From assembly GCF_009730915.1 (NCBI RefSeq), contig NC_052475.1, forward strand, positions 24,055,016 to 24,119,015: DNA of 64,000 nt, read 5' to 3'. Numbering within the stretch: the first letter of the stretch is position 1; each line of letters starts with the position of its first letter. Source of the DNA: Dioscorea cayenensis subsp. rotundata. Taxonomy: Eukaryota > Streptophyta > Magnoliopsida > Dioscoreales > Dioscoreaceae. A model generated the notes under the pieces. That model was not told the DNA's origin, ran no database searches, and saw only the letters and a list, made by a program, of their open reading frames with translations. The translations under genes and the position numbers were made by a program. Shown piece after piece: positions 8,565 through 63,400 of this stretch.

Positions 8565-9470
8565 GGGCCTTGTTTGGATTAGCTTAATAAAAAAGTGCTT
8601 TTTTTAAGTTTGGTAGAAGGACTTTTAAAAAAAGTGCTTATGAGAGTAAGTTAAGTGCTTTTTTATATTTTATGTTTGAATATGTTAATGTAGAAGCACT
8701 TTTATATATGTAAAGTTGTTTGGATATGCATTCTTGAAAGGACTTTTTTCAATGTCAAATTACTAAAATGGGCATTCATTAGTTTATTATAATAACACTA
8801 ATTTTAATACTAATATACTAACATACTAATATTAATACAAATATAATAATAATATTAATATGAATACAAATACTAATTAATATACTAATTATAATATATG
8901 AATACTAATATACTAATACAAATACAAATATACTAACATACTAATATTAATACTAATATACTAATAATAATATTAATATACTAATAATTATAATAATACT
9001 AATATACTAATATATTAATAGTACTAATATGAATACAAATACTAATATACTAATAATAATACTATTACTAATACAAATATACTAATATACTAGTACTAAT
9101 ACTAATATACTAACATACTAATACTAATATATTAATGTACTAATTCTAACACTAATACTAATATACTATGATTATAATTATAATTATAATCATAATTATT
9201 ATTATTGAAAAAACAAAAATTATAAAAGCATAGTCATTTCTTTATTTGATAAGGGTAACATAGTAATTTAATAACTCCAAAATAGCTTCTAAGAAGTGCT
9301 TTTTCCAAAAGCACCACAAGACTAGCTTCTCAAAAAAGCTGTTTTTCAGCTTTTTTATCAGCTTCTGCTTCTGCAGAAAAGCTAATACAAACATGATTTT
9401 TTGAGCTCAGAAGTGCTTAACTTATAAAAAAGCACTTCTTGGCTTTTTAAAAGCCAATCCAAACACCCCC
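8565..9470. mobile_element. Non-autonomous TIR element (MITE-like) with ACTAATA-rich interior
   Basis: The left end GGGCCTTGTTTGGATTAGCT matches the reverse complement of the right end, GGGGGTGTTTGGATTGGCTT, over about 20 bases with few mismatches. Inner inverted stretches follow (left AAAAAAGTGCTTTTT, right AAAAAAGCACTTCTTGGC), so the terminal 150 bases on each side could fold back. The interior (about 8780-9190) is a degenerate expansion of ACTAATA/ATTAATA units with no coding capacity. Flanking bases are CTA on the left and TAA on the right, so a TA or TWA target duplication is possible but not clear. The superfamily is uncertain (PIF/Harbinger-like or hAT-like). Confidence 0.72.
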
Positions 9471-13508: not shown

Positions 13509-14292
13509 TTAGAATACATTAACAATGATCCCCTTGGTCAAGAGATTACTTGGACAGAATTCAATTCGTTAGATCTTTTTTATGTGAATGGCTCAGCGGC
13601 TGCACAGGCGATTTTATAATGGAAGTGCAGGAATACTATCCGGACATGGTTAGAATAGAAGTCAAAGGAATATTAGAATATGTTCATTCTAGAAACCGTA
13701 TGAAAACACTGAAACATGTGTCAAGCTTAGACTAGTAAGAGCATCAAATTTGTTCAAGCAATCGGACGGCAACGTCTTGACAAATCAGCCTCTTTGATGT
13801 ATAATATCCTGCTGCTTTAATGTCATTTAATTAAACTGTACGTCCTTGTTCGCTCTCTGCCAAAGTCGTAAAGACCTTTTAGTCCAAAAAAATAATAAAA
13901 ATAAAAGCAAAAATTAAAATTAAACTTTAAACAAAGAAAAATCCTGAATGGGATAACTAGTAAAAAATCAATCTCTAATCACCATTTTTATTTGGAAAAA
14001 ACTATTAAAGATGGGATAAATTCTCTAAAACACTTTCAAAAGCAACTTTTGGAAAGATGGGATAAATTCTCTAAAACACTTTCAAAAGCAACTTTTGGGA
14101 ATTGTCCCTTCTATTCATATCTCACTTTAATATCAGCCAGTAAATTATCCTGGCCACTGTAGTTCGTGAATGGTGTAAGCGTTACTCAGGTCAGGCTAAC
14201 TGGTTCATTAATATATTGTAAGTGTTTAATAATCTAGTCAGCCTCTTTAGTAAGTGTATGTATGCGTCTATCAGCCCTCAGATTAGTGACTA
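13509..14292. other. Intergenic, no gene seen
   Basis: Upstream region of the UGT gene. It contains one perfect tandem duplication, listed separately, and no supported coding sequence. Confidence 0.5.
14007..14098. repeat. Perfect 46-bp tandem duplication
   Basis: Two adjacent identical copies of a 46-base unit that begins AAAGATGGGATAAATTCTCT and ends AGCAACTTTTGG: 14007-14052 and 14053-14098. No differences are visible between the copies, so the duplication is recent. Confidence 0.92.
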
Positions 14293-32587: not shown

Positions 32588-34364
32588 ATGGACACCATCT
32601 CACAATCCACTCCAAAGATGATACCTCAAACTCCAACTTCACTGCAACAATGGCTACAAGAACACTACCACCTTTACTGGTTCATCAGCATAACCATAAC
32701 CCTAATAACCACCTTCTCTTTGTTTCTCTTCTACAAATCATCTCTGTTATCAAAGAAGAAGCTTAAACTACCACCATGTCCATTAATTCTCCCACTTGTT
32801 GGCAACCTTCACCAACTTGGCTCTCTCCCTCACCGTTCCCTGCATGCACTCTCTCAGAAACATGGACCTTTGATGCTCCTCCACTTAGGGAAAGTCCCAG
32901 CAATCATTATCTCCTCTGCAGAACTTGCTCAAGAGATTATGAAAACCCATGACCTCATTTTCTCCAGCCGCCCATTTTCCTCCATGGCCAACAGTCTCTT
33001 GTACAACTCTCTCGACATCGCCCTCTCTCCTTACGGCGAGTACTGGCGCCAAGTGCGACGCATTTCCGTCATTCACTTGTTAAGCCTCAAGAGAGTCCAG
33101 TCCTTTGGAAGTATCCGAGAAGAAGAAGTATATCTAATGGTGGATAAGATCCATGCATCACAGGGATCATTGGTGAATCTGAGTGAGATCCTTGTGGCAG
33201 TCACTAATGCTGTGGTTTGTAGGGTAGCTTTGGGGAGGAAGTATGATAGGAGTAATAGATTTCGTGAGATGCTCATTGAGTTCGCGATCTTGCTCGGTTC
33301 CTTTCCTTTAAAGGACTTCATTCCATGGCTTGGTTGGGTTGATAGAATAACTGGTTTGGATGCGAGGGTGGTGAACAATTCCACGGAAATGGATAGTTTC
33401 TTTGAAGAAGTCTTAGAGGATCACATCCATTCCAAGACATCAGAAACTAGCGATTTAGTGGATGTTTTACTATCTTTGGATGTTCCTCTTAGTAGAGATA
33501 GCACCAAAGCAATCATCTTGGTATATATATAAACTTGTAATGATAAAGTATATACTTGTTTTTTTTTTATGATAAAAGTGGATATATAAACCACTACGGC
33601 ACTACTTTATTAAAAAAACAAAAACAAAAAAGACAATACAACAAAGAAAGTAGAATATATAAACGTTTTGTGTTCCTCTGTATATAGTGTTATATATATA
33701 TATATATATATATGCATGCAAATTATTATATATATTAATTTATTTGTTCACCTATATATGCAGGACTGCTGGAACTGATACAATATTCACAGCTCTGGAA
33801 TGGATTATGGCTGAGCTCATGAGAAACCCAAAAGTCATGGAGAAAGTTCAAGAGGAGATAAAGGGAGTAGTCAAAGGAAAGGCAAAAGTTTCAGAAGAAG
33901 ACATTGTTGAAATGATCTACTTAAAAGCAGTCATCAAAGAAGCGCTGAGACTTCACCCCCCAATCCCTTTACTGGTTCCTAGAGAATCGACAGAACATGT
34001 TAAACTCCATGGGTTTGATATACCTGAGAAAACAAGGGTTGTGATCAATGCTTGGGCTATTGGAAGGGATCCCAAGAGTTGGGAGAGGCCTGAGGCATTC
34101 ATGCCTGAGAGGTTCTTGAACAGTGAAGTGGATTTCAAGGGACAACACTTTGAGTTCATACCATTTGGAGCAGGGAGGAGAGGATGTCCAGGAATCATGT
34201 TTGCCATTTCCACAATTGAGCTTGCTGCTGCTGCTCTCTTGCACCATTTTGATTGGAAGCTACCTGATGGAATGAGAACAGAGGAGTTGGATATGAGTGA
34301 AACTTCAGGTTTTAATGCTCATATGAAAACAAGCTTGCTTGTTCAGGCTACACCAAGGTTTTAG
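32588..34364 (+). pseudogene. Cytochrome P450, CYP71 clan, tandem copy 2, with a frame-breaking 8-bp deletion
   Basis: Exon 1 (32588 or, by homology with copy 1, 32618 to 33520) is intact; from 32618 it is exactly 903 bases, as in copy 1. Exon 2 begins after the acceptor at 33763 and runs to 34364, 601 bases against 609 in copy 1. The missing 8 bases lie right after the first codon of exon 2 (copy 1 GACATGTTTTCCGCTGG, copy 2 GACTGCTGG). With the same splice the reading becomes D-C-W-N-stop. No nearby AG acceptor or alternative donor restores the phase. The rest of exon 2 stays open in its own frame, with AGTDT, ExxR, PERF and FGAGRRGCPG intact, so the lesion is young or a sequence error. The intron carries a LINE-tail insertion. 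Confidence 0.85.
33556..33665 (-). mobile_element. Short LINE-tail insertion in the P450 copy 2 intron
   Basis: About 110 bases with no match in the copy 1 intron. On the minus strand it ends AGTGGTTTATATATCCACT (33596-33578) followed by CATAAAAAAAAAA, the same GTGG...CCAC hairpin plus poly(A) found at the LINE 3' ends elsewhere in the window. Possible target duplication AGTATATA / GAATATATA at the borders. Confidence 0.6.
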
Positions 34365-34920: not shown

Positions 34921-35169
34921 TCTTTTAAATATTAGATTAAGTTGGGTGAATGTTACCAATATTTAAAAATGGGAAAATTACTGTTTACCCCTCGATAATT
35001 TCAAAACTTCCCAAACGACTCGTGAGTTTTTGCATACCCTCGACACATTTCTTCCTTTATTGTTTCACTTCCTTTTTACCTCCTGCATTATGAAATTCCA
35101 TCATTGCCCTTAAACCTTTTTGCATACATTTTTTTCATTCTTTTTTGCATTCCTTTTTGCATGTACTCA

Positions 35170-35600
35170 TTTCTTAAACAGAGAGCTCATTTTTTAAACA
35201 TAAAACTCATTTTTTAAACAGAGAGTTCATTTCTTAAACAGAGAGTTCATTTCTTAAACAGAGAGCTCATTTCTTTAAACAGAAACCTTATTTCTTAAAC
35301 AGAAAACTCATTTCTTAAACAGAAACCTCATTTTTTTAAACATAAAACTCATTTTTTAAACAAAAACATTAATATTTAAACAGAAAAACAAATATTTACG
35401 TGATAAATTAATCCTGGATATAAAAACCAATTAATCTTGGTCACTCGTACATATTTAAATAGAAATAACAATATTTAAGCACTTTTTTAAACGCAAACGC
35501 AATATATTAAACAGAAACATCGATAGTTAAACAAAGACAAACAAGCATATAAACAGAGAATTCATTTCTTAAACAGAGAGCTTATTTTTTAAACAGAGAC
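35170..35600. repeat. Tandem array of ~20-21-bp TTAAACAGA units, left arm
   Basis: About ten regular copies of a unit like CTCATTTCTTAAACAGAGAG with a period of 20-21 bases between 35170 and 35370, then looser TTTAAACA copies to 35600. Confidence 0.85.
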
Positions 35601-35639
35601 CTCATTTTTTTAAACAGAAACCTCATTGAGTAGGGACAT

Positions 35640-36200
35640 TGAGTATCTCATCGTCGCTGATCTCGCGCGAACGCTTGAGTGTTGAGCTCCAGATCTGGCG
35701 AGCGATCTCGAAGGTGGCCTGCTCGTGTGGGTCTTAAAGGAGAAATCTTTGTCGGCGTTGGCGATTCGGTTGGCGACGTTCCTCGGCGGTCGGAGTGGTG
35801 AGGTCTTCGATGGCGACGTCGGATAAGACGGCCTGAACTTGAACGGAACCATTCTCGACTGCGGAGACCGCAACATGGATAGCAATAGGGTTAGGGTTAG
35901 GGATCATTCCGGGGTTTGGATCCATGGTACCTAAGTCGGTGACGGGAACGGAGGGAGGAAGCGGCGTCGATGAGGGTTCGATCTCGCCGTCTTTGTCTTC
36001 GTCTTCATCATCTTCCCTGTCGTCGACCTCATCTCTTTCATCTTATTCGTCGTCGACCTTGAGGAAGACCGCACGCTCCTCGTCGTCGTGCGAAGGCATC
36101 GAAAGGTTGCACCTTTTTCTCTGGCAAGATCGAGATCTAGATCGAAGTGAAGATCAAATTCTAGGGTTCGAAATCCCATTTTTCATGCAACGTGACTGTG
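35640..36200. other. GC-rich core of the small MULE-like element, possible captured gene fragment
   Basis: CpG-rich sequence unlike its surroundings. The plus strand has a frame at 35924-36265 with a poly-Ser/Leu stretch and a charged end; the minus strand has a frame at 35925-35734 starting MDPNPGMIPNPNPIAIHVAV. Neither is recognised as a known protein. It may be a captured host gene piece (Pack-MULE style) or a relic of the autonomous element. Confidence 0.4.
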
Positions 36201-36279
36201 ATTGTGAGTCGCATGCTTTGTCTCACTGGCCCAGCCCAACTGCAATAAAGAGATTTTGGGGGTGATAAATACACCCCAA

Positions 36280-36560
36280 AAAACTCATTTCTTAAACAGA
36301 GACCTCATGTTTTTAAACAAAAACCTCATTTCTTAAACAGAAAACTCATTTTTTTAAGCAGAAACCTCATTTCTTAAACAGAAAACTCATTTTTTTTTAA
36401 CAAAAAACTCATTTCTTAAACAGAAAACTCATTTTTTTAAACAAAAAACTCATTTTTTTTAAATAGAAAACTCATTTTTTAAACAAGAAACTCATTTTTT
36501 AAACAGAACCTCATACCTCATATTATAAATAGAAGCCTCATTTTTAAATAGAAACTCATT
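36280..36560. repeat. Tandem array of ~20-21-bp TTAAACAGA units, right arm
   Basis: About twelve copies of CTCATTTCTTAAACAGAAAA-like units in the same orientation as the left array, with more length variation in the T-run. Confidence 0.85.
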
Positions 36561-36795
36561 GCACCCAAGGGCATTATAGTCAAACCCTGTCACACTTGCC
36601 ACAACTTCCCACGCAAGGGACAATTTCGTCCATAAAATTCCAAATTAACTCTATCAATCACTGTTAGATGTTTGGGGGGTTTAAAAAATCATTATATTCA
36701 AAAGGAAGGGGTTTTTATGGATAGCCAAATTTAAGGGGAGAATCTGTGCATATTGCAAATTTTGAGGGTGTTTTTAGCAATTTCCACTTTAAAAA

Positions 36796-52535: not shown

Positions 52536-53229
52536 TAATCTATACACTACCTAATAACGAGATTACTATGTTGTTCAACCATTAGAAAAAATATTTTCAG
52601 TGCTCACAGGACAAAAAATTAACTTATAACGTCATTATTATTTCCTTTTTCACCCATAAATCATCAACATCTTGATTTTGTTTAAAGATAACATCATTGT
52701 GATATATTTATTTTTATCTCATTTTATCACTCATATATAAATATACACATTTATTTTATTTATTTTTCTAACAATTTAAACTAGTAATTCATCTGTGACA
52801 AAAAAAAATTAATCTCTAAATCTTTAACTTGGCTAACCTATCCTACTCATGTAAATTTGGACATTTAATAAAGGGAAAATTACTGCTCACCCTCAGTAAT
52901 TTTCAAAACTTCCCCAAAACTCCTCCTACTTTTGCAGACACCCTGATGCTAGTTAGTGTTTAACTTCCTTTTTACCCTCTACGTTCACTTCAAATGGGTC
53001 CATGTTGTGAAATCCCATTTTTGGCCCCTCGAAAATGAGTGGGAAAGGAAAGCTGCAAAATCACATCATGTTCAACCTTTTGAAGAGCTCTCTGTGGTTT
53101 AACGTTTAAATATTTTTACTAATATGTTTAATAATTATCATATCCGTGTAATACTTCCCATCTCCGCTTTAACGTTATCTTTACATGTATAACTATTCAT
53201 ATTAACGTGTAAATTCTCAAAGTCTCTGC

Positions 53230-54120
53230 GTAAAACGGTGATCTTTTTCGTTCGATCTCGAATTCTGCTGGGCAGACGCGTGGCAGTGCTGAGAGATTAT
53301 GTATCCCGTCGATAAGAATTAATGAGCGCATTAAAATTTACTGCACGAGTAACATAATTTTCCCGAACACGCGCTCGTTCTCATCGATCAATGTCTGCGC
53401 ATCGCGCTTAACTTTTTCTGGATACGAAGAGTCGACTCGCTGTGAATTCACACCATAAATAACCGGGAAAAGAACCCTCCCACGGACAACCACTCCTCGT
53501 CGTCCTCGTCATCATCCTCCTCCTCCTCCCTCGTCCTCCTCTTCCCATGGACAACCACTCTATCCCGAAAGGATGTTTCGTGAACCTTCTTCCCTTATCT
53601 TGAGAATCATAGCTGTAATCACGCAACGTTAAACTATCTTTTTCAGCTTGAGTCGAAAATCGCTCATAATCGCCTCGAATCGCGGAGGATTCTTCATGAT
53701 GTGGATGACGAGCAAGCAATTAAGCGAGCATTTTCGACTTGGGTAAGAAAAAGAAATTTTTCACGTATTTCGTGATGCGGAGGATTCTCTAGAGGAGGGA
53801 GATCGAGAAAGCATCCTTTAAGACGGGTTGATATTTATCACTTGAGACTTTTTCGTTACCATTTAAGAACATTACGCTGTACAACTATTACGCTCTACTG
53901 TTTAACTATCGGGATCTTCGCTTAAAGTCCCGACCATGCACACATTGATTAATAGTCATTTTCATGAATGTGTGTTGTTTAACCTTTTTAATGTTAGTAC
54001 GTTATGCGAGGTTCAAGTTGATCGCGACGTTATGCAAACCGTGAGCGATTCAGAATGTCATGACACTCTGTTTCGCTATACGTCAGAGTCGAGTCGCGTG
54101 AGTGTCGTAAAAGTCAGAGC
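53230..54120. other. Left GC-richer block of the MULE, coding origin uncertain
   Basis: Composition like the exon blocks, with a minus-strand frame at 53719-53408 and a short plus frame at 53936-54151. I recognise no domain. It may be a 5' part of the transposase unit or a further decayed ORF. Confidence 0.4.
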
Positions 54121-54129
54121 TTATTTGAC

Positions 54130-54530
54130 TGTGAACTTCCGAAAAATTTAAACATAGACCTAGTAAAAACAAACATGTGGGGAAACAAAAGAACGCCATC
54201 AGTAAACAATAGAAAATACGTAAATATGTTTAAACAATGACAACGGTGTTTAAGAAAAAGTTACTCTTTAAACAATGACAACGTGTAAACAATAGAAAAA
54301 GTTAAACAATACTCAAGTTACTCTTTAAACAATGACAACTGTGTTTAAGAAAATACGTAAAGATATTTAAACAGTGACCCAGGAGGTACCCATCTTCAAC
54401 GCGATGTCAGTGAAAGCATTCAATTTAAACAATAACATATTATTTAAATGATATAGACTTTAGTTAAACAATTAACTGCTTTTTTAAAACACTATATGTA
54501 TCGCTTAAACATAAAAAGCTTGACGCTTTA
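54130..54530. repeat. TTTAAACAATGA-type repeat block in the MULE (1)
   Basis: At least eight degenerate copies of TTTAAACAATGACAAC or shorter TTTAAACA words within 400 bases, between two GC-richer blocks. Confidence 0.75.
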
Positions 54531-55139
54531 CACAGTAGACTCATGTTGAGTCGAGAACTTTCATTCGAACGATGATAATATGTCTTCCTCGTGACAATGA
54601 CATATATTTCCCTTTTTGCCATTGGGATGGAGGGAAAAATACCGCCCAATCACATCACGCTCTAGTCTAACCTCTATGCAGTACAACCTGCTACTTTTTG
54701 TTTGCATTTCTCTCGACTCTGCTTTGTTCTTTTACATCTTCTACTTCTTCTTCTTCATCTTCTTTTTGTTCTTCATTTCATTTGGTTTGTACTGATTTGG
54801 TTTTCGATCGATATATTATGGAGAGTTTTTGTGGTATTGCTAGATTCAACGGGGAAGGAAGAGTGCTAATGTTCACTGCTCGCACTTCTTGGGAGTTGGT
54901 GTTAGACTGAGATATGTGAGCGATGGGGTCTCAAGTTTCTCTTGTCGTGGTTACGTTCATCACACCGGATGGATATAAAAGCGGTTTTGCCCTAATCGAA
55001 AATGATGTTGACTTCCGTGGATGTGTCACGCTCCACTCCATCTTCAAATGTCTGTCAGAGTTGATCTTGTCGCTCGAGGGCAGTAAAATGTGCCATTGTC
55101 GATCCTAATGAAAAGCGAGGTTTACTCGTCAGTAAGTTC

Positions 55140-55325
55140 CTTTTTCTTTTAATTATTCCAGTTGTTCAGGGGTCATTATTGTTTAAATATGTCCGCCATC
55201 TGGTTAACATATTTTTACTAGTCCTTTACGTTATTAGTTAATTGCTTAAGTATTTAATTTAACGTTTAACTATTGTCATTATCGCTTAAACATTATATCT
55301 CCGCTTAACATATTGATCTTTTCAT
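55140..55325. repeat. TTTAAAC-type repeat block in the MULE (2), intron-like
   Basis: Lies between the N-terminal and DNA-binding parts of the transposase. Copies run in both directions (GTTTAACTATTGTCATTATC and CTTAAACATTA). Confidence 0.65.
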
Positions 55326-56639
55326 TTGATCGAAGTGTTGGCGAGATTGATCTGCGAGTGCTCCCCATTCATCCCATGGTGACCGGGCGGTGTGGGATGT
55401 CTTCCTTCCTCGTCAGATCATTCTGAAGTGTTGTCGTTGGATATTGGACAACGTTTTGACGGTGTCGAACATTTCAGGGATGTACTTCGAAATCATGCAA
55501 TCAAAAGGAATTTTGACTTCAATTTCATAAAGAACGAAAAACATCGGGTGACCGTGGAATGCGTCACTTTGATGGTTGCTCTGGCTTTCATCGCATCGTC
55601 AAAGAGTATAACAAAAATACTTTTCGAATCAAGACGACCAACCGGCGTCACGCACTTTGCGGTGGTGGCGTAGGTTCGAGCGTCAGCATCCGAAAGCTGC
55701 CCAAAAATGGGTTAGCGCCACGAGTGATTCGAAGCTCAAGGGACCGATCCCTGTACGAGGCCATCGACATTCGGAAGGACATGTTCGTGAACAGTGGTGC
55801 CCACATACATACTAAGGCGAGGCTTGGTTGGGAAAAGAAGCGTGCAGGGGTGGTCCTCGGCTCAGCGTTACGTCTCCGACATATTTGTTTGCTTTGGTAC
55901 TGTGGATAAGGTGGGTCGAGACAAATCCGGCGTGTTGCGATCGTGGAGAGGCGGTGATCGTTTTAAAGCGTCAGTTCTTTTCTTCGGTAGCGTGTATTGT
56001 GGGATTTAAGATGACTGTGCGTGTCTAGCGTTTCTCGATGGTACCCACGCCGGCCAGAAAATATCGGGAGTGCGCTCACGTGGGTCGCGAGGGAAGAGAT
56101 GGTAAACGATGGTTTTCACGTCGCCTTCGGGTACTAGTCGACAGCGAGACCGATGCCGATTGGACTTGGTTCAGTATCTAGGTTAGGCGATGCTCTTACT
56201 CACGAGGGTGGAGAGTTATCATGAGATAGTACCTTCGTGTCGGACGGTCCAAAGGGCGCTCGTGAGCGCAATTGCTGAGTCTTCCCTTCCGCCACATGCG
56301 TCTTTCGCTCCGACATTTGGGAGGCCCATTTTACGAAAGCCGATGTCGGACTTGGGAAGGCATTGAGGGAGGTCTTGGTCTAGCATGCTCCGCATTACGT
56401 GGGCATCCACGGCTAAAGATTTCGACGATGACCAGTGAATGAACTCGCAGCCATCATCACTCGAAGCTCATCACTGGTCGATTAATAAATCGGATATGCG
56501 CACATTGGTCGAATTATCTGTTCGGGAGGTGATCGCTGGGGTGAGATGTATTCAAACGTCGGAGTCGCTCAATGCTTGGATCAAGGAAACTCGTCATTTA
56601 CCGGTGACGAAAATGGTCGACTCCATAAGGTCTGCGAAT

Positions 56640-56818
56640 GTTGGTTTACACTTAACATTTAGTGTTACCCTTTAAACATTCTCAATCTTTGTTTAATTAC
56701 ACTTGTCTGACTTTAAATATTAATCCTTTTGTTTAAATAATTTACAATAATGTTTAAACATGTTTACGTAATTATTTAACCATCACTCGCCTTTTGTTTA
56801 ACCTTATTTGCCGTGTTC
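56640..56818. repeat. TTTAAAC-type repeat block in the MULE (3), intron-like
   Basis: Falls between ...TKMVDSIR and the next coding stretch, which starts at GTGTTCAAG|TTGATGCACGATG. Contains TTTAAACATT, GTTTAAATAA and TGTTTAAACATG words. Confidence 0.7.
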
Positions 56819-57419
56819 AAGTTGATGCACGATGTCATGTAACCGGGCGGAGCAAGTGGAACAAAGCGGAGACCCACTTACGCCCGCACATACATTCCAA
56901 GTAGCGATCATTGTTGAGGACAGTCCAAATCTTCGCGGTTGGTCGCTGTGTCGATGATCGCTACGAGCGATCGCACGCAAGCAGCAACTCGTGGATCTCG
57001 CCATCAGAACTCTGTTCAGGCGTCGACAGTGCTAAGTTTACGGTATCCTCAGCAAACACGCTATGCGCAAAGAATCCAATGCAGCATGACACCAACGTAC
57101 ATCGATTTATTACGCGGGTACTTCACCGCTCGACAATTACAAACCTAGGGCGACAAGGAAGCTATATCCCATACCCGACGACTGACAGGCCTTCGACGGA
57201 AATCGCGAGCTTCGCTTATGCATCGCCTGACGGACAGAAGGCAGCGGCGCCCAGACGAAAGAGGATCGAGTCGCAAGCGCTTTGATGTCCGTGGAGTTAC
57301 ATTGCAGCTGCCGCCATGGATCGGCCACAACGACGATCTGCAATGAAACTGTCGCCGTACTAGGCATGTTAATAAGTCGACGATGACAGGAAACATTGTG
57401 TAATGATGGAGTCGTCCAC

Positions 57420-57850
57420 ATTTAAAACTCTTACTTTACAACGAATCTGAATATGATTTAAACAGTAGACATTGTTATTTTAAACGGATACACTCTAATT
57501 TGAAATATTTCAACCGATGTTTAAACGATATATGGTATATTTAAAACAACGAAACGGAAAATGCACATAACTACAACGTAAATTAAACAATGAAATGAAA
57601 CTCGAATGAAATTTAACCCTGCCTTACAATCGAAAACAAACAAACTTTACATCGAGATATATGTTATTGATGGGCAACTTCCCATATTTATTTTAAACAA
57701 TGAATGCATCTAGTTAAACAGAGACAGTAGTTATTTTTAACGGCACCGTATTTTGAAATATTTAAAACTGATGTTTAAACGATATATAGTATATTTAAAC
57801 AATGAAAGTGAAATGTACTAATTAGAACGTACTAAACAATGAAATGAAAA
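57420..57850. repeat. TTTAAAC-type repeat block in the MULE (4)
   Basis: Follows the end of the transposase. Contains two diverged copies of a longer unit of about 250 bases (ATTTAAAACAACGAAACGG... and ATTTAAACAATGAAAGTG..., each preceded by GATGTTTAAACGATATATRG). Confidence 0.75.
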
Positions 57851-57899
57851 CCGAAATCGAATTTAACTCGCTTTTACAATTTCAAAACAAAACAAAATT

Positions 57900-58680
57900 T
57901 ACATTAACATACAAGTCATGCTCTCGAACACGACACGACATTGAATTTGTCCAGATTTACATTCGAAATAGGGATCATCCGAGATATGGCCGTGACATGT
58001 TCTCGAAACAAACATTTCACGCCATTGTGACTTCAACTTCACAGATGGACGTCGCGCCTCCCAGCATGCGGTAACATACCGATCCCAGGTAAGAATCAGT
58101 TCGTGCAGCAGTCAGAATCTCACGTAGCACCGAGCTAAACCATGACGTACCTCGCAGCAATCGACGCCTTTCCCAGCTTTACGCGCGCGGCAATGCACGA
58201 GTGGCGTAGTCGTCGCCGACCGACCGAGCTCGGCATGCTCGCCCATCGTCATCACGGTGCACGCCGCAGATACGCAGATGAGATCAGACGATACTTAAAT
58301 ACCAAATCGTAGGCCACTACGGCCATACTAAGAACTTACCACGTCGCGGCTCTTATCGTGACTCCGACATGAAGAATACGCAGTATTTCTGTTTATCATC
58401 GTCTGTGATCGGCCTATATAGAGTGGCCATTCATGAGATTACCTGGAGGACGACACTTGAACTCACGCAGCCATGACGCCATCCCCGCATCATAGCCATA
58501 ATTGTCAGTCATGTGCGCGCGCTGACATAAACAACGAGAAGCGGTCTCAGGATGGAGGCGCGGCTTGGCGTAAGGATATCACCGCATTTCGCCGACTATC
58601 AGTACATGAAACATTAGCCGCGACCATTGCTGGGCCGCGGTCACATCATCGCCGACGCATACGTTTTCCATTGACATAGT
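57900..58680. other. GC-richer block of the MULE, not identified
   Basis: CpG-containing sequence with broken frames on both strands. Position suggests a 3' part of the minus-strand gene of the element, where related MULEs may carry a Ulp1-type protease, but no catalytic motif could be read. Confidence 0.35.
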
Positions 58681-58684
58681 TGCC

Positions 58685-58880
58685 GAGGTATAAACGATAA
58701 TGCATATACAGATCCATATTATAAATATTTAAATGATATTATCAATTGTTACATGATATTATATATAATTAAATGTCGTTAAGTAGACAAATTAAATGAT
58801 AAACATAAAGAAACAAAACACTATTAGGTAATCGTTAAACACTATAATAAAAACCTTTAAACAATATCATAAAAACTTTA
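58685..58880. repeat. TTTAAAC-type repeat block in the MULE (5)
   Basis: ATTTAAATGATATTATC, CGTTAAACACTATAATAAAA and CTTTAAACAATATCATAAAA words; lies between two GC-richer blocks and has a TTACCCATCC (minus-strand GGGTAA) border on the right. Confidence 0.6.
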
Positions 58881-58884
58881 CACT

Positions 58885-60010
58885 TACCCATCCATAGAGC
58901 AGTTGAGGAAGATCCTCATCAACCCCTCGCTCAGACGAGTTAAGACCCACTCGAGCCAACCCATTACTCTTCTTCTTCGAATAAAAGCTCGAAACCGCCT
59001 CAGTCCAATGTCATCGCGCTTTCGATCATCTCTCGCCGCTCGGCCGGTCTTCAGCCAAAGATCTTCCTCCGATGCGGGACGCACGCGATAGCATCAATCG
59101 CATACTATCCACATTACATGGTTGTTCTTGTCGTGGATTGTGTTCCGCTTTTGATGCGGGACGCACGGCGACGTAAAGATCAACCGCGTAATGATCCTTT
59201 ACACGGTTTCGCGTGGTGGAATCGGGCGCCGTCGCGAGCATCGCGCACGACGCCCACGCCACCAAGCAACGGATTCTCGGACCATCTTCTCAAACCGTGG
59301 GCTACGACACGTAAAAGAGTCAATCGAGACACACTAACTTGTTCTCCGATCTTCATCGATCAGTGTCCATCTGACGCCGCACTCATAGCACTCTTGCTCC
59401 ACGTGTCGAGGATTTCATCGAGAAGAGAGTCAACGGCCTTCCTCAACAAATGCAGAATCCAAGAATTCATCATCTACGTTTATGTCCTTCAACAACAAAG
59501 ATCACCACGATGGTGTTGCTATTGTTTCATCGTCACCGCGCTGGAGACAGAGGCGAGATTGTCCTCCTCTTTCGCAAGTCTCTTCGAATGTGGCCGCCTT
59601 TGAACGACCTTCTCCGACGACGCTCGCCGTCAAATTCCGACGCCTGCTCGTCCTGTGGTGCCTAGCTCGCGAGGGATGGCGCAACGGTCGCAGAACGCCC
59701 TTCCAGCGCCTCGACTACGAGCGGACAAGCCGAGGAAACCGGTCACAATATCCGGCATGCGATAAGAGTTCGCGCGGACATCTTCGCCCAATGTCACCGC
59801 TGGGGCCGCCACTTGGCGGAGGGCGCCATGGTCGACGCCACACTGCGGGACGTCGCTGTTCGCAGGGATCGTTGTCAACCGGGCCGGGTAGGGAGGCCCC
59901 TGCCGAGGAACGTGTGCGCTGAGGGCCGAAGTAGGAGAACGGCCCACCACAAGCACGACAAGAGGTCAGCTTCTCATCCCGCCCGAGCAAGTGGTTCCTA
60001 GTACGGAATC
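58885..60010. other. GC-rich block of the MULE, not identified
   Basis: Over 1.1 kb with much higher GC than the surroundings. Many overlapping open frames on both strands reflect composition; the longest is 59118-59603 (+). The minus-strand reading near 59084-58884 ends WLEWVLTRLSEGLMRIFLNC just before the repeat block, which could be an exon end of the minus-strand gene. No known domain recognised. Confidence 0.35.
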
Positions 60011-60059
60011 CATCCGTGGGTTGGCCCCAACAAATATTTTCTTCAAAGACCACCTAAAC

Positions 60060-60275
60060 ACCAGAAACTAACAATAAACCAAACAATTCATGGAAATCAC
60101 CATTTTAAACTATAAAACTATATCAAACAGAATATATATATTTAAACGTTATAGAATATAATTAAACTAAGAACAAAATATTTAAACCAAGATGAATAAG
60201 AGTTAAACGGTAAATACTAAAGTTAAACGCTAAATAAAATGTTTAAACGTTAAAGACTTATGTTAAACATTGTCC
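60060..60275. repeat. TTTAAAC-type repeat block in the MULE (6)
   Basis: At least eight TTAAAC words (TTTAAACGTTA, GTTAAACGGTAAA, GTTAAACGCTAAA, TTTAAACGTTAAAG) within 215 bases. Confidence 0.75.
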
Positions 60276-60344
60276 ATGATTTATTACCCTTTTCCATCGA
60301 AGCGATGATAAGTCGCTTCTACCGTCGCCGCTTCCGAAGTACTT

Positions 60345-60880
60345 TCACCGTAGCACAACATCCTGGGATTCGCCAAACGACTTTCTTCCCCGCTCCGCCA
60401 ACGAACAGACGCTAAGGCGACCGAGCAAACCTAATGTACCCCTGCGGTCTTCTCTTCCGGCGCATCTATCTTGCACTGGGCGGCCGCTGTGGAATATCCT
60501 CCATAAGCCACGGCAAAAGCCGCCAGTGCCCACGCGTATCGCCCTACGGCCGGTAGATCATCGACGTAATCAACGATCCAGCTCGAACCGAGCATGATGT
60601 ATTTGAAGAGGATCGTCCCCATGAGGAACACCATCGAGTTTGACAAAATTATCTTCTTCTCCCTCTGTCAAACAAGTTGCAACAGAGCGTTTCGGATGAG
60701 TCTCTGTGTCTCGTAGGTCTTTGATATAGATACCGTCGAACGCCGACCGCTTTCTTCTGAGACCATCGCCGCCATCCCAACGCGCACCAAGCACCAGGGC
60801 CACATCTTGAGGTCTCAAACTCAAGAAAGTCCATCTCGAATTTATCAGCGACCATCGTACCTTTGCAAAAGAGAATCAAG
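60345..60880 (-). pseudogene. Plant-mobile-domain-like (MULE-associated) protein fragment
   Basis: Minus-strand pieces in shifting frames: LRPQDVALVLGARWDGGDGL, then EEDNFVKLDG, then MGTILFKYIM, SSWIVDYVDDLPAVGRYAWA, VQDRCAGREDR. This order is like the plant mobile domain / DUF1985-type proteins that occur inside or beside some MULEs. No intact frame remains. A possible 5' exon is the frame at 61722-61450. The family call is from memory of similar transposon proteins and is not certain. Confidence 0.48.
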
Positions 60881-61079
60881 AAGGCCTTCCTAGGTAGTTT
60901 TCTGTATCAGCTAACGCCGCAAAACTGTCCGGTCACACCTGTCGAGGGGTCATGTTATTTTTCAATTCACCTAAAGTCTCCACTACCGTGTCAAATAGCA
61001 TCGGCCATTAACTAGGTTGACCGCCATACAAGCCTCGCACAACAACACATTCAACACCAAGACTACAAAAGTTACCCTA

Positions 61080-61440
61080 AATATATTTCAAACCATAAAC
61101 CATTAATTAAACATAGATATAAAAAAACAGACCCATTTTGCAAAGCAGACGCAGAATACTTTAAATGACAAAAATGTTAAACAGAACATCTCATTTCTTA
61201 AACGCCAACCCCATTTGTAAAACATAAACCATATCAAATTAAACTAAAAATGTACATTATAAATATTACATAAATCATAAATAACTTAAAAACTAATCTC
61301 TATAGCGATAATGAAAATGCAAACAAAAACCTCAGACGAAAAATCAACAAGAATAACAAAACCCTCACTTCAATATCTTCCAACAAAAAAGACACAAACA
61401 AATCAAAAATCTTTCATTTGTAACGAGAACAATTAACATA
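61080..61440. repeat. TTTAAAC-type repeat block in the MULE (7)
   Basis: Contains CTCATTTCTTAAACGCCAAC (about 61189-61208), nearly the same word as in the tandem arrays of the 1.8-kb element, besides looser TTAAACATAGA copies. Confidence 0.65.
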
Positions 61441-61908
61441 AAACCATACTCAATACCTTAGATTTTCAAGCCCGATGAAATGCCAACTAGTCGCGTGGAG
61501 GGACTTCTCCTTGAGATACTGGTGGAAAGGGAAAAGGCTGATGAAATGCCGATTACGGAGGCTTTCGCGCAGAGACGACCGGAGACAGATCGAAATGGAA
61601 AAGGCGAGGCGTGAGTTGAGAGCAATTAAACTGCTCGATAAATTAGCCCTCTGCGTGGTTACCCTACGGAGAAACCGCCCACTTCCTCTGATCGCGCCCG
61701 AGATGGTCGCAGAAATGACCACGACTCACTGAAGGGCATTTTCGGCCCAAAATTTCGAAACCTCACCCGCTCACATTCGCGTCAGAGCTGAGTTTGGTGG
61801 TTTGAAAAACATAGAGTTTAAAAGGAGGAGATTTTTGGGTATTGCAGAAACTAATGGGGTGTGTGTGGCAATTTTACAAACTTAAAAGTGGTTTTTGGCA
61901 ATTTTCAC

Positions 61909-63400
61909 TTAATTTTATTTTAAGTCAATTTTAAGTACAAAAGCCCATAAACTAGGTCATCATTTTATATAGATACGGTTTTCACTTCAGCAAGAAATCG
62001 CTGGCTAAGTTATCCCAATTGATGTTATAGTTTGCTACAATTTCGACCGCATAAAATATATATAGATATCATCAATTTATTATTTTAATTATATTGAAAT
62101 TACTATTTTAATTGGAAGTACTTTTATAACTTGAATTAAAAATATTTGATTATAGAGAAATAATCAAATTTAAGAAAAATAAGAACCAGCGCGATAATGA
62201 GAGGGGCACAGTCGTGATTTGCCTGCACTCTCACTGAACCCACCACCCAAAACCCTGTTGACGACCCGAAAGTGGACCGACTGTAGTGTGACACTGGCTC
62301 CACATTTGCTAGCAATCCCTAGTACTGGATCAATGCTTTTTAATTATAACCCGGCTCACTGGCCAACCTCCGGCACCACTGTTTGGCTCGGTGAACCCGG
62401 CGATTTATCAAGACTTGGGTTTAAGAGGTATAGAAGCCCATCCACTTAAAAGCTATGGTGATTTTGATGATGGATAGGAATATTTATATATGCAAATATA
62501 TAGATAAGCAATGAATGTAAGATAATAATAAATTGTTCTTTAAAAATATTAAAATTCAAAAATTCCATCAATAATTACAAGCGTGTTTAAATTGGATAAC
62601 ATAAAAGTTAAGAAATCCCTGAAACTAGTGATCACTAACAACATGATAAGTTAGGTCCGCTTTTTAATAAAGATGATTGTAGACAAAATCATGATATTAA
62701 AATTAATTTTATTATATAATAAAATTATATAATAATAATAAAAATGCTAAACCATAATTATGAATTACAATTAATAAAATAATGATCATAAAATAAGAAG
62801 CGTGCACAAATTCGACAATAAGAAACGGAGATGGGAAGTGCAAGCGAAAGGGACTTTTTCTTCACCGGAGCATACGATAAGCACAACAACAACCCCAACA
62901 TCGAGCAAGAGTTAGAACTCAAGCGTGATGAATAGGTAATTAGGTGATTACTTTAGTCTAAGGTAAGAAAAACTACATTGCTTTTGATTCCTCTTACAAC
63001 CAAGCAGGATACCTAGGCAAGTTCATTTTCGATTAATCATCACATTATGTGCAAGCCGAACTTTATAGTATTTTTAAATTATGTAAATGTTACAATCTTA
63101 TCTATTTGTTTTTATTTATGCAATGCACTAATTATTGAGCAGCCTAACCATCTTATCCAAAAACACATTAGGTTCAAATTTAAATGTATAAAAATGATAT
63201 ATTTTTATAATATATGTGTATATATATATAATTACAATCTATGTATATATATAAAAACAAAAAGTCCAGATTGAGATTTTTATTTTTCTTGGCTTTACCA
63301 TCCGCCCATCTCTCCCTTTTCTCCCACTAATAATAAACTGATACTTTGACGAGGATGAGCACTTCCACTAGCTTGCGTACCATGGTTAATGTCTTTAAGG
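61909..63400. other. Intergenic, no gene seen
   Basis: A short GC-richer stretch at 62200-62450 has an open frame (62219-62449) with no recognised similarity. The rest is AT-rich with a (TA)n run near 63215-63230. Confidence 0.45.

Follow-up and report, generated by a model that had tools for sequence, protein, structure and literature searches.

Helically phased word arrays, putatively VANC-like binding sites, in the introns and spacers of a white Guinea yam MULE family

Why would the introns of a transposon look like satellite DNA? The question is raised by a Mutator-like element (MULE) of 9 kb, at positions 52873–61908 (+ strand) of a 64,000-nucleotide stretch of the white Guinea yam genome (Dioscorea cayenensis subsp. 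rotundata, contig NC_052475.1, positions 24,055,016 to 24,119,015; hereafter, the window), whose AT-rich blocks are crowded with words of the type TTTAAACA. Our analysis shows that these words are strongly enriched, keep one dominant orientation in each block and recur at about every second turn of the DNA helix, in introns and spacers that are shared by a family of copies. We propose, at a probability of roughly 0.6, that they form VANC-like arrays of putative binding sites, likely read by the protein of a gene on the antisense strand of the element. Such a reading would account for the satellite look of the introns.

Words crowd the AT-rich blocks of one element

A cut on GC content separates nine AT-rich segments within the MULE (2623 bases pooled). 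Together they contain 27 copies of TTTAAAC against 2.68 expected, about tenfold over expectation, and 19 copies of TTTAAACA against 1.08; none of the 500 dinucleotide shuffles behind these expectations attained the pooled 27. In the remaining 6408 bases, TTTAAAC occurs once against 0.72 expected, and the shorter TTAAAC six times against 2.55, a count attained by 24 of 500 shuffles. The original prediction of word-crowded AT-rich blocks between nearly word-free, exon-like ones, and of an enrichment over shuffled sequence, is confirmed by these counts. Seven blocks had been counted; the cut yields nine segments, eight of which contain TTAAAC words (segment 54709–54826 has none). Taken singly, the TTAAAC counts of the eight blocks were attained by 4 (53046–53223), 0 (54129–54560), 2 (55131–55335), 0 (56633–56821), 0 (57388–57957), 20 (58668–58901), 0 (60037–60300) and 3 (61035–61467) of 500 shuffles, with 58668–58901 the weakest.

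The word is itself A+T rich and the blocks are only 24–33% GC, as would suit an origin by chance or base composition. In addition to the shuffles, equally AT-rich pieces of the window outside this MULE and a short relative of it (26,400 bases) contain 18 TTTAAAC against 19.7 expected. This control, without any excess, shows that composition is not the cause, and the two comparisons refute chance and composition, to which we assign a negligible probability. Across the genome (a 584-Mb assembly of 2249 contigs), the 12-mer TTTAAACAATGA occurs 2602 times (1396 + 1206), compared with 375 (177 + 198) for the reversed pattern. In this genome the two primers published for the Dioscorea rotundata sex marker sp16 both have exact matches, the reverse primer at a single site on contig C11 and the forward primer 238 bases from it; the marker region has been assigned to pseudo-chromosome 11 (PMC5604175). 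These matches point to D. rotundata, a monocot (Liliopsida), or, less probably, to a very close relative.

The blocks are introns and spacers of two convergent genes

To place the blocks, we compared the window copy with 14 regions of 10 kb, each selected for a pair of TTTAAACAATGA sites separated by about 3.3 kb. This choice is biased toward the upstream and spacer blocks and leaves the antisense-gene introns unbiased. Every region matches the window element. The genes of the element converge, with MURA on the + strand and a second, antisense gene on the − strand. Of the eight word blocks, two correspond to predicted MURA introns, two to predicted antisense-gene introns, one to the antisense-gene 5′ region and one to the spacer between the genes; the remaining two lie upstream of MURA.

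The element is classed as a MULE, as originally predicted, by its MURA/MULE transposase domains: the MURA DNA-binding domain (DBD) matches at E = 5.3e-14 in the window and 1.3e-20 in relative L014, where the MULE domain also matches (2.2e-10), and SWIM matches at 8.5e-11 on a majority piece and 1.8e-6 on relative L007. Exon 1 (54820–55131, +; approximate bounds, start MESFCGIARF by eye) is broken in the window copy. It is followed by intron 1 with phased words (55132–55335, +; a GT donor in 14 of 15 copies and a terminal AG), exon 2 with the DBD and transposase domain (55336–56629, +), intron 2, again with phased words (56630–56821, +; donor GT in 15 of 15), and exon 3 with SWIM and, by eye, a CCHC knuckle (56822–57387, +; end approximate). 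Two blocks thus coincide with transposase introns, where the original prediction had expected them. Upstream of MURA lie the array 54129–54560 (+), with TTAAAC predominant on the + strand, and the left array 53046–53223 (+), with GTTTAA on that strand and an aligned block of 175–603 bases across the 15 copies. In several relatives (L012, L015) the aligned left block extends further, to as much as 603 bases, and includes GC-richer, exon-like sequence that is missing from the window copy. Also upstream, 53985–54040 is similar by eye to the junction of MURA intron 2 with exon 3 (56810–56835), and this region is perhaps partly an internal duplicate.

The spacer array between the convergent genes (57388–57957, no strand assigned) measures 321–865 bases across the 15 copies. 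Beyond it, the antisense gene is read on the − strand from an array in its 5′ region (61035–61300) through a PMD/DUF1985-like part (60288–61034; approximate, from a reading joined across relatives and weak in single copies), intron A (60041–60287; donor GGTAATA, kept in 14 of 15), a variable linker (58888–60040; approximate), intron B with words (58668–58887; a predicted intron with donor 58887–58886, GT in 15 of 15 copies, and an unplaced acceptor) and a Ulp1-like part (57958–58667; approximate, placed from relatives and heavily decayed in the window copy).

The domains of this second gene are weakly matched. With frames joined by eye, its 5′ part matches PMD at 2.2e-7 and DUF1985 at 3.4e-6 over one shared stretch. 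Among 101 open reading frames (ORFs) from the 15 copies, three match Ulp1 at E ≤ 0.1. When ten ORFs were scanned separately, those of L012 (2.6e-4; 21.3 bits, Pfam cut-off 20.7) and L020 (4.3e-4; 20.6 bits) matched and eight did not; in L007 the match is 6.5e-4 alone and 5.3e-6 after two ORFs are joined. The value is 0.04 on the majority piece and 0.0027 on the joined reading, and the Ulp1-like part has no relatives in the PDB at E ≤ 1. A frame of intact-gene length is found in none of the 15 copies, the longest being 327 codons (L014).

Arrays keep their positions across the family

All eight blocks contain at least one word each in all 14 relatives. The sparsest case is 61035–61300, in which just one word is left, in reverse orientation, in four of them (L009, L010, L011 and L017). 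A second set was chosen by a MURA exon alone, giving 2057 first-look candidates; the 40 scored match at 83–87%, the window itself aside, and comprise 30 loci including the window. In the 29 exon-picked relatives and the window, words occur at 28.8 per kb upstream of MURA, 15.6 and 28.3 per kb in its two introns and 16.8 per kb in the spacer, against 0.2, 0.3 and 0.0 per kb in its three exons, and the exact 12-mer TTTAAACAATGA is found in 27 of the 29. The predicted conservation of intron arrays in position is therefore seen in both sets. Array lengths differ from copy to copy.

Identity among the 14 relatives is 0.899 in MURA exon 2, 0.869 in exon 3 and 0.888–0.911 in the four intron arrays; the three antisense-gene parts give 0.846, 0.808 and 0.835. 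Compared with MURA and the intron arrays, the antisense gene diverges more rapidly, a difference to which misalignment in its indel-rich stretches may contribute.

The window copy stands apart at 57930–61034: its identity to the 14 relatives is 0.65–0.77 in the antisense gene, 0.85–0.93 in the arrays and 0.79–0.90 in MURA. It may represent a diverged lineage or be misaligned across the antisense gene.

One orientation per block and a period of two helical turns

The words had been described as running in both directions. Both directions do occur, in part as palindromes (GTTTAAAC); once palindromes are excluded, one orientation dominates every block. GTTTAA is in the majority on the assumed sense strand in seven of eight blocks, with ratios to the reverse word of 29:12 and 37:16 in the MURA introns, 61:0 and 75:1 in the antisense-gene introns, 50:12 in the antisense-gene 5′ region, and 56:1 and 101:9 in the left block and the spacer, for both of which the sense strand is uncertain. 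The block upstream of MURA has the opposite orientation (34:95). Orientation is almost pure in four of the eight blocks and a 70–81% majority in the other four.

Within blocks the words are phased, a feature newly recognised here. Their spacings group at 20–23, 40–43, 60–63 and 81–84 bases, and a scan of periods from 8 to 42 bp gives a best period of 20.5–20.6 bp, about two helical turns, from 1140 pairs in 15 copies whose relatedness makes the pairs interdependent. For the window element by itself, 76 pairs give a mean cosine of 0.62 at 20.55 bp, a period derived from the 15-copy set that includes this copy; none of 2000 random within-block placements equals it (maximum 0.39). Antisense-gene intron A illustrates the pattern, with seven successive cores at 20–21 bp, separated by linkers that are unlike one another, and another core 37 bp ahead. 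After masking of the cores, periodicity at 20.5 bp falls to 0.05 for A-runs and 0.04 for T-runs, against 0.75 for TTAAAC. The phase sits in the word alone, not in the linkers. Curvature by A-tracts phased at about 10 bp finds no support under this masking, because the periodicity of A- and T-runs is all but gone. Helical periodicity of the motifs reportedly matters in the VANC system (Sasaki et al., 2022).

These patterns bear on whether the words act in RNA, with U-rich units on the sense strand that aid splicing or serve as transcript signals and a spacing that is a by-product. The GTTTAA majority on the sense strand of all four introns is what such a role would give. The array upstream of MURA runs in the opposite sense, arrays also lie on both sides of the short relative, which lacks a transposase, and a 20.5-bp phase is not needed for splicing; we consider a role in RNA very improbable.

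A short relative carries fresh arrays with the same core

The window contains a second member of the family, newly recognised in this work: a 1.8-kb MULE relative without transposase (34971–36787, +), flanked by the target-site duplication TTTAAAAAT / TTTAAAAAA (8/9). Its left terminus is identical in pattern to that of the big MULE, and both its ends can be aligned to the family. It contains clean 20-bp tandem arrays of CTCATTTCTTAAACAGAAAG at 35165–35627 (+) and a second set of clean tandem arrays with units of 20–41 bp at 36277–36553 (+). The core of its words is that of the big element; the linkers are different. The GC-rich centre between the arrays (about 35630–36270) may be a captured fragment.

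Linkers differ in their likeness between the two kinds of element. In the short relative, adjacent linkers are 78% alike and distant ones 65%, whereas in the big copies the values are 43–52% and 40–42% (from few pairs in some copies, three in L018). In the big element, then, core and phase are better kept than the repeat unit as a whole.

This comparison is central to the most serious competitor of a binding array, a passive minisatellite. On that view slippage carried a 20-bp tandem repeat through the non-coding parts, where it is now decaying with no protein reader. The plain tandem arrays of the short relative, the variation of array length between copies and the slightly greater likeness of adjacent than of distant linkers would all be expected of it, as would the finding that TTAAAC is retained after insertion no better than other words made of those letters (0.951, with a mean of 0.955; rank 24 of 40). 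Decay should hit core and linker equally, yet the big copies combine an in-phase core with near-unrelated linkers, a comparison that is conditioned on intact cores and so tilts somewhat against the minisatellite; moreover, the period disappears once the cores are masked. It is chiefly this better keeping of core and phase than of the unit as a whole that leads us to prefer a binding array, and we regard the passive minisatellite as unlikely.

A putative protein reader

The binding-site reading can be put as a mechanism. Binding sites at about every second helical turn would align the bound molecules on one face of the DNA. Introns and spacers would house the words because coding sequence is unable to carry them, which we propose as the reason for their confinement there. 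The likely reader would be the antisense-gene protein, with a PMD/DUF1985-like N-terminus, a variable linker and a Ulp1-like C-terminus; by analogy with VANC of Arabidopsis VANDAL, it would bind element copies lengthwise and lift their silencing. It could serve both autonomous copies and short copies with the common core, and the core shared by the short relative fits service by the protein of autonomous copies. Tandem amplification, fresh in the short relative, probably creates the arrays; core and phase would then be held, presumably by selection, while linkers drift. Among the three origins that had been suggested for the words, binding sites fit best, with the antisense-gene protein favoured over the transposase that had been named as binder, and local amplification probably gave rise to them.

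The transposase deserves separate consideration, as the words could be sites for MURA, used in transposition or self-regulation. MURA has a DNA-binding domain, and arrays occur near the left end of the element and just within the ends of the short relative. Arrays also extend throughout the whole element, far from its ends, and the nearest known arrays of such layout are read by VANC and not by the transposase (PMC5735166). We judge MURA sites improbable, and the antisense-gene protein the likely binder.

Several results weigh against the binding-site reading and its proposed reader. No observation links the words to the antisense-gene protein in preference to MURA. The PMD and DUF1985 matches both fall under their Pfam cut-offs (DUF1985, 27.5 bits against 35.1) and depend on the reading joined by eye: the unjoined majority piece matches neither domain, PMD is matched by one of ten single ORFs (0.011) and by none of four ORFs of L006, and DUF1985 by none of 101. 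The unremarkable retention of TTAAAC after insertion and the slight likeness of adjacent linkers, as in a decaying repeat, count here too. CpG transitions are no fewer in the arrays (0.183) than in MURA exons (0.137) or antisense-gene blocks (0.158), with rates from 40 of 91 pairs of copies. The exact VANC21 or VANC6 motif is absent as such from the yam arrays. Finally, the target-site duplications of the window copy match poorly (5/9, by eye).

Element ends and neighbouring sequence

The MULE has the termini GGGAAAATTACTG and, on the opposite strand, GTGAAAATTGCC; the pattern of its left terminus is found at two places in the window. The putative target-site duplications, assigned by eye without strand, are TTTAATAAA on the left (52864–52872) and TTAATTTTA on the right (61909–61917), with just five of nine positions matching. 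Duplications of about 9 bp were also compared by eye in L019 (9/9), L021 (9/9) and L015 (7/9); the remaining copies had no flank on one side in the retrieved stretch or were left uncompared. The ends were also compared for terminal inverted repeats, which in VANDAL-type MULEs are absent or short and degenerate; about 13 terminal bases are similar by eye. Local alignment of the two 200-bp ends scores 25 against a shuffle maximum of 24 in the window copy, 37 against 25 in L019 and 34 against 27 in L021, and 18 against 24 in the short relative, for which the stretch used ended 4 bases inside the element end.

About 600 bases to the left of the short relative, a putative cytochrome P450 gene of the CYP71 type was noted by eye at 32652–34364. 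Elsewhere in the window, outside the elements, there is a perfect 46-bp tandem repeat in two copies (14007–14098), and an AT-rich minisatellite built on an ATACTA unit lies at 8789–9168.

Comparison with known systems

Motif-guided anti-silencing has already been worked out in Arabidopsis, and we compare the yam family with it and with other MULEs on the basis of excerpts from the sources cited. VANC21 binds dense, same-orientation YAGTATTAY motifs in the introns, intergenic regions and terminal non-coding regions of VANDAL21 (Hiun); these motifs form tandem repeats that vary between copies, VANC21 causes loss of methylation, and VANC6 of VANDAL6 uses different motifs (PMC5735166). The VANC proteins compared there carry DUF1985 and DUF287, and their variation exceeds that of the transposase VANA (PMC5735166). 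RNA-directed DNA methylation acts on the identical VANDAL non-coding regions (PMC10398659). Arrays in introns, intergenic regions and termini were thus known from VANDAL21, and the original prediction of a distinct architecture does not hold; what is new here is the motif and the monocot host.

Like VANDAL21 and VANDAL6 as described in those excerpts, the yam MULE has a transposase and a further gene, the latter evolving faster, and dense, mostly same-orientation arrays of variable length that are scarce in exons. It differs in its motif, TTTAAACA as opposed to YAGTATTAY or AGTTGTCC/AC, in an antisense gene whose match to PMD is no weaker than that to DUF1985 and which ends in a Ulp1-like part, in the number of recognised genes (two, compared with three in VANDAL) and in its monocot host. 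We would call it VANDAL-like by anatomy.

Other MULEs share parts of this anatomy. A 2026 review describes Ulp1-carrying VANC genes that recognise motifs of their own kind in non-coding regions, and dates the Ulp1 capture to the monocot–eudicot separation, with strong conservation in eudicots (PMC13317346). In these Ulp1-carrying VANC genes (KIU or Kaonashi), a Ulp1 domain belongs to the second gene of a MULE of the non-TIR (terminal inverted repeat) type, and the Ulp1-like end of the yam gene resembles them in this; they are reported as conserved in eudicots, whereas yam is a monocot (PMC13317346). MULE-Monocots and MUDRAVI2 combine a MURA carrying SWIM or CCHC with a PMD-type gene that is sometimes or often antisense; motif arrays go unmentioned in the excerpts of that source, and the comparison is by description only (PMC6446971). 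A literature search combining Dioscorea with MULE, VANC or anti-silencing returned no Dioscorea paper among the matches listed, in a database with subscription journals mostly outside its coverage.

These comparisons suggest, at what we would call even odds, a motif-guided anti-silencing system of monocots' own, in which an abundant MULE family of white Guinea yam would use an antisense PMD/DUF1985–Ulp1 gene, guided by TTTAAACA arrays in helical phase, to target its own copies and short derivatives. If this is true, such systems would predate the monocot–eudicot split or have arisen twice. This monocot family has a motif of its own, 2057 first-look candidates for its transposase exon (40 of them scored) and a short derivative that carries fresh arrays, and it would make the age of such systems, the turnover of their motifs and the role of helical phase testable.

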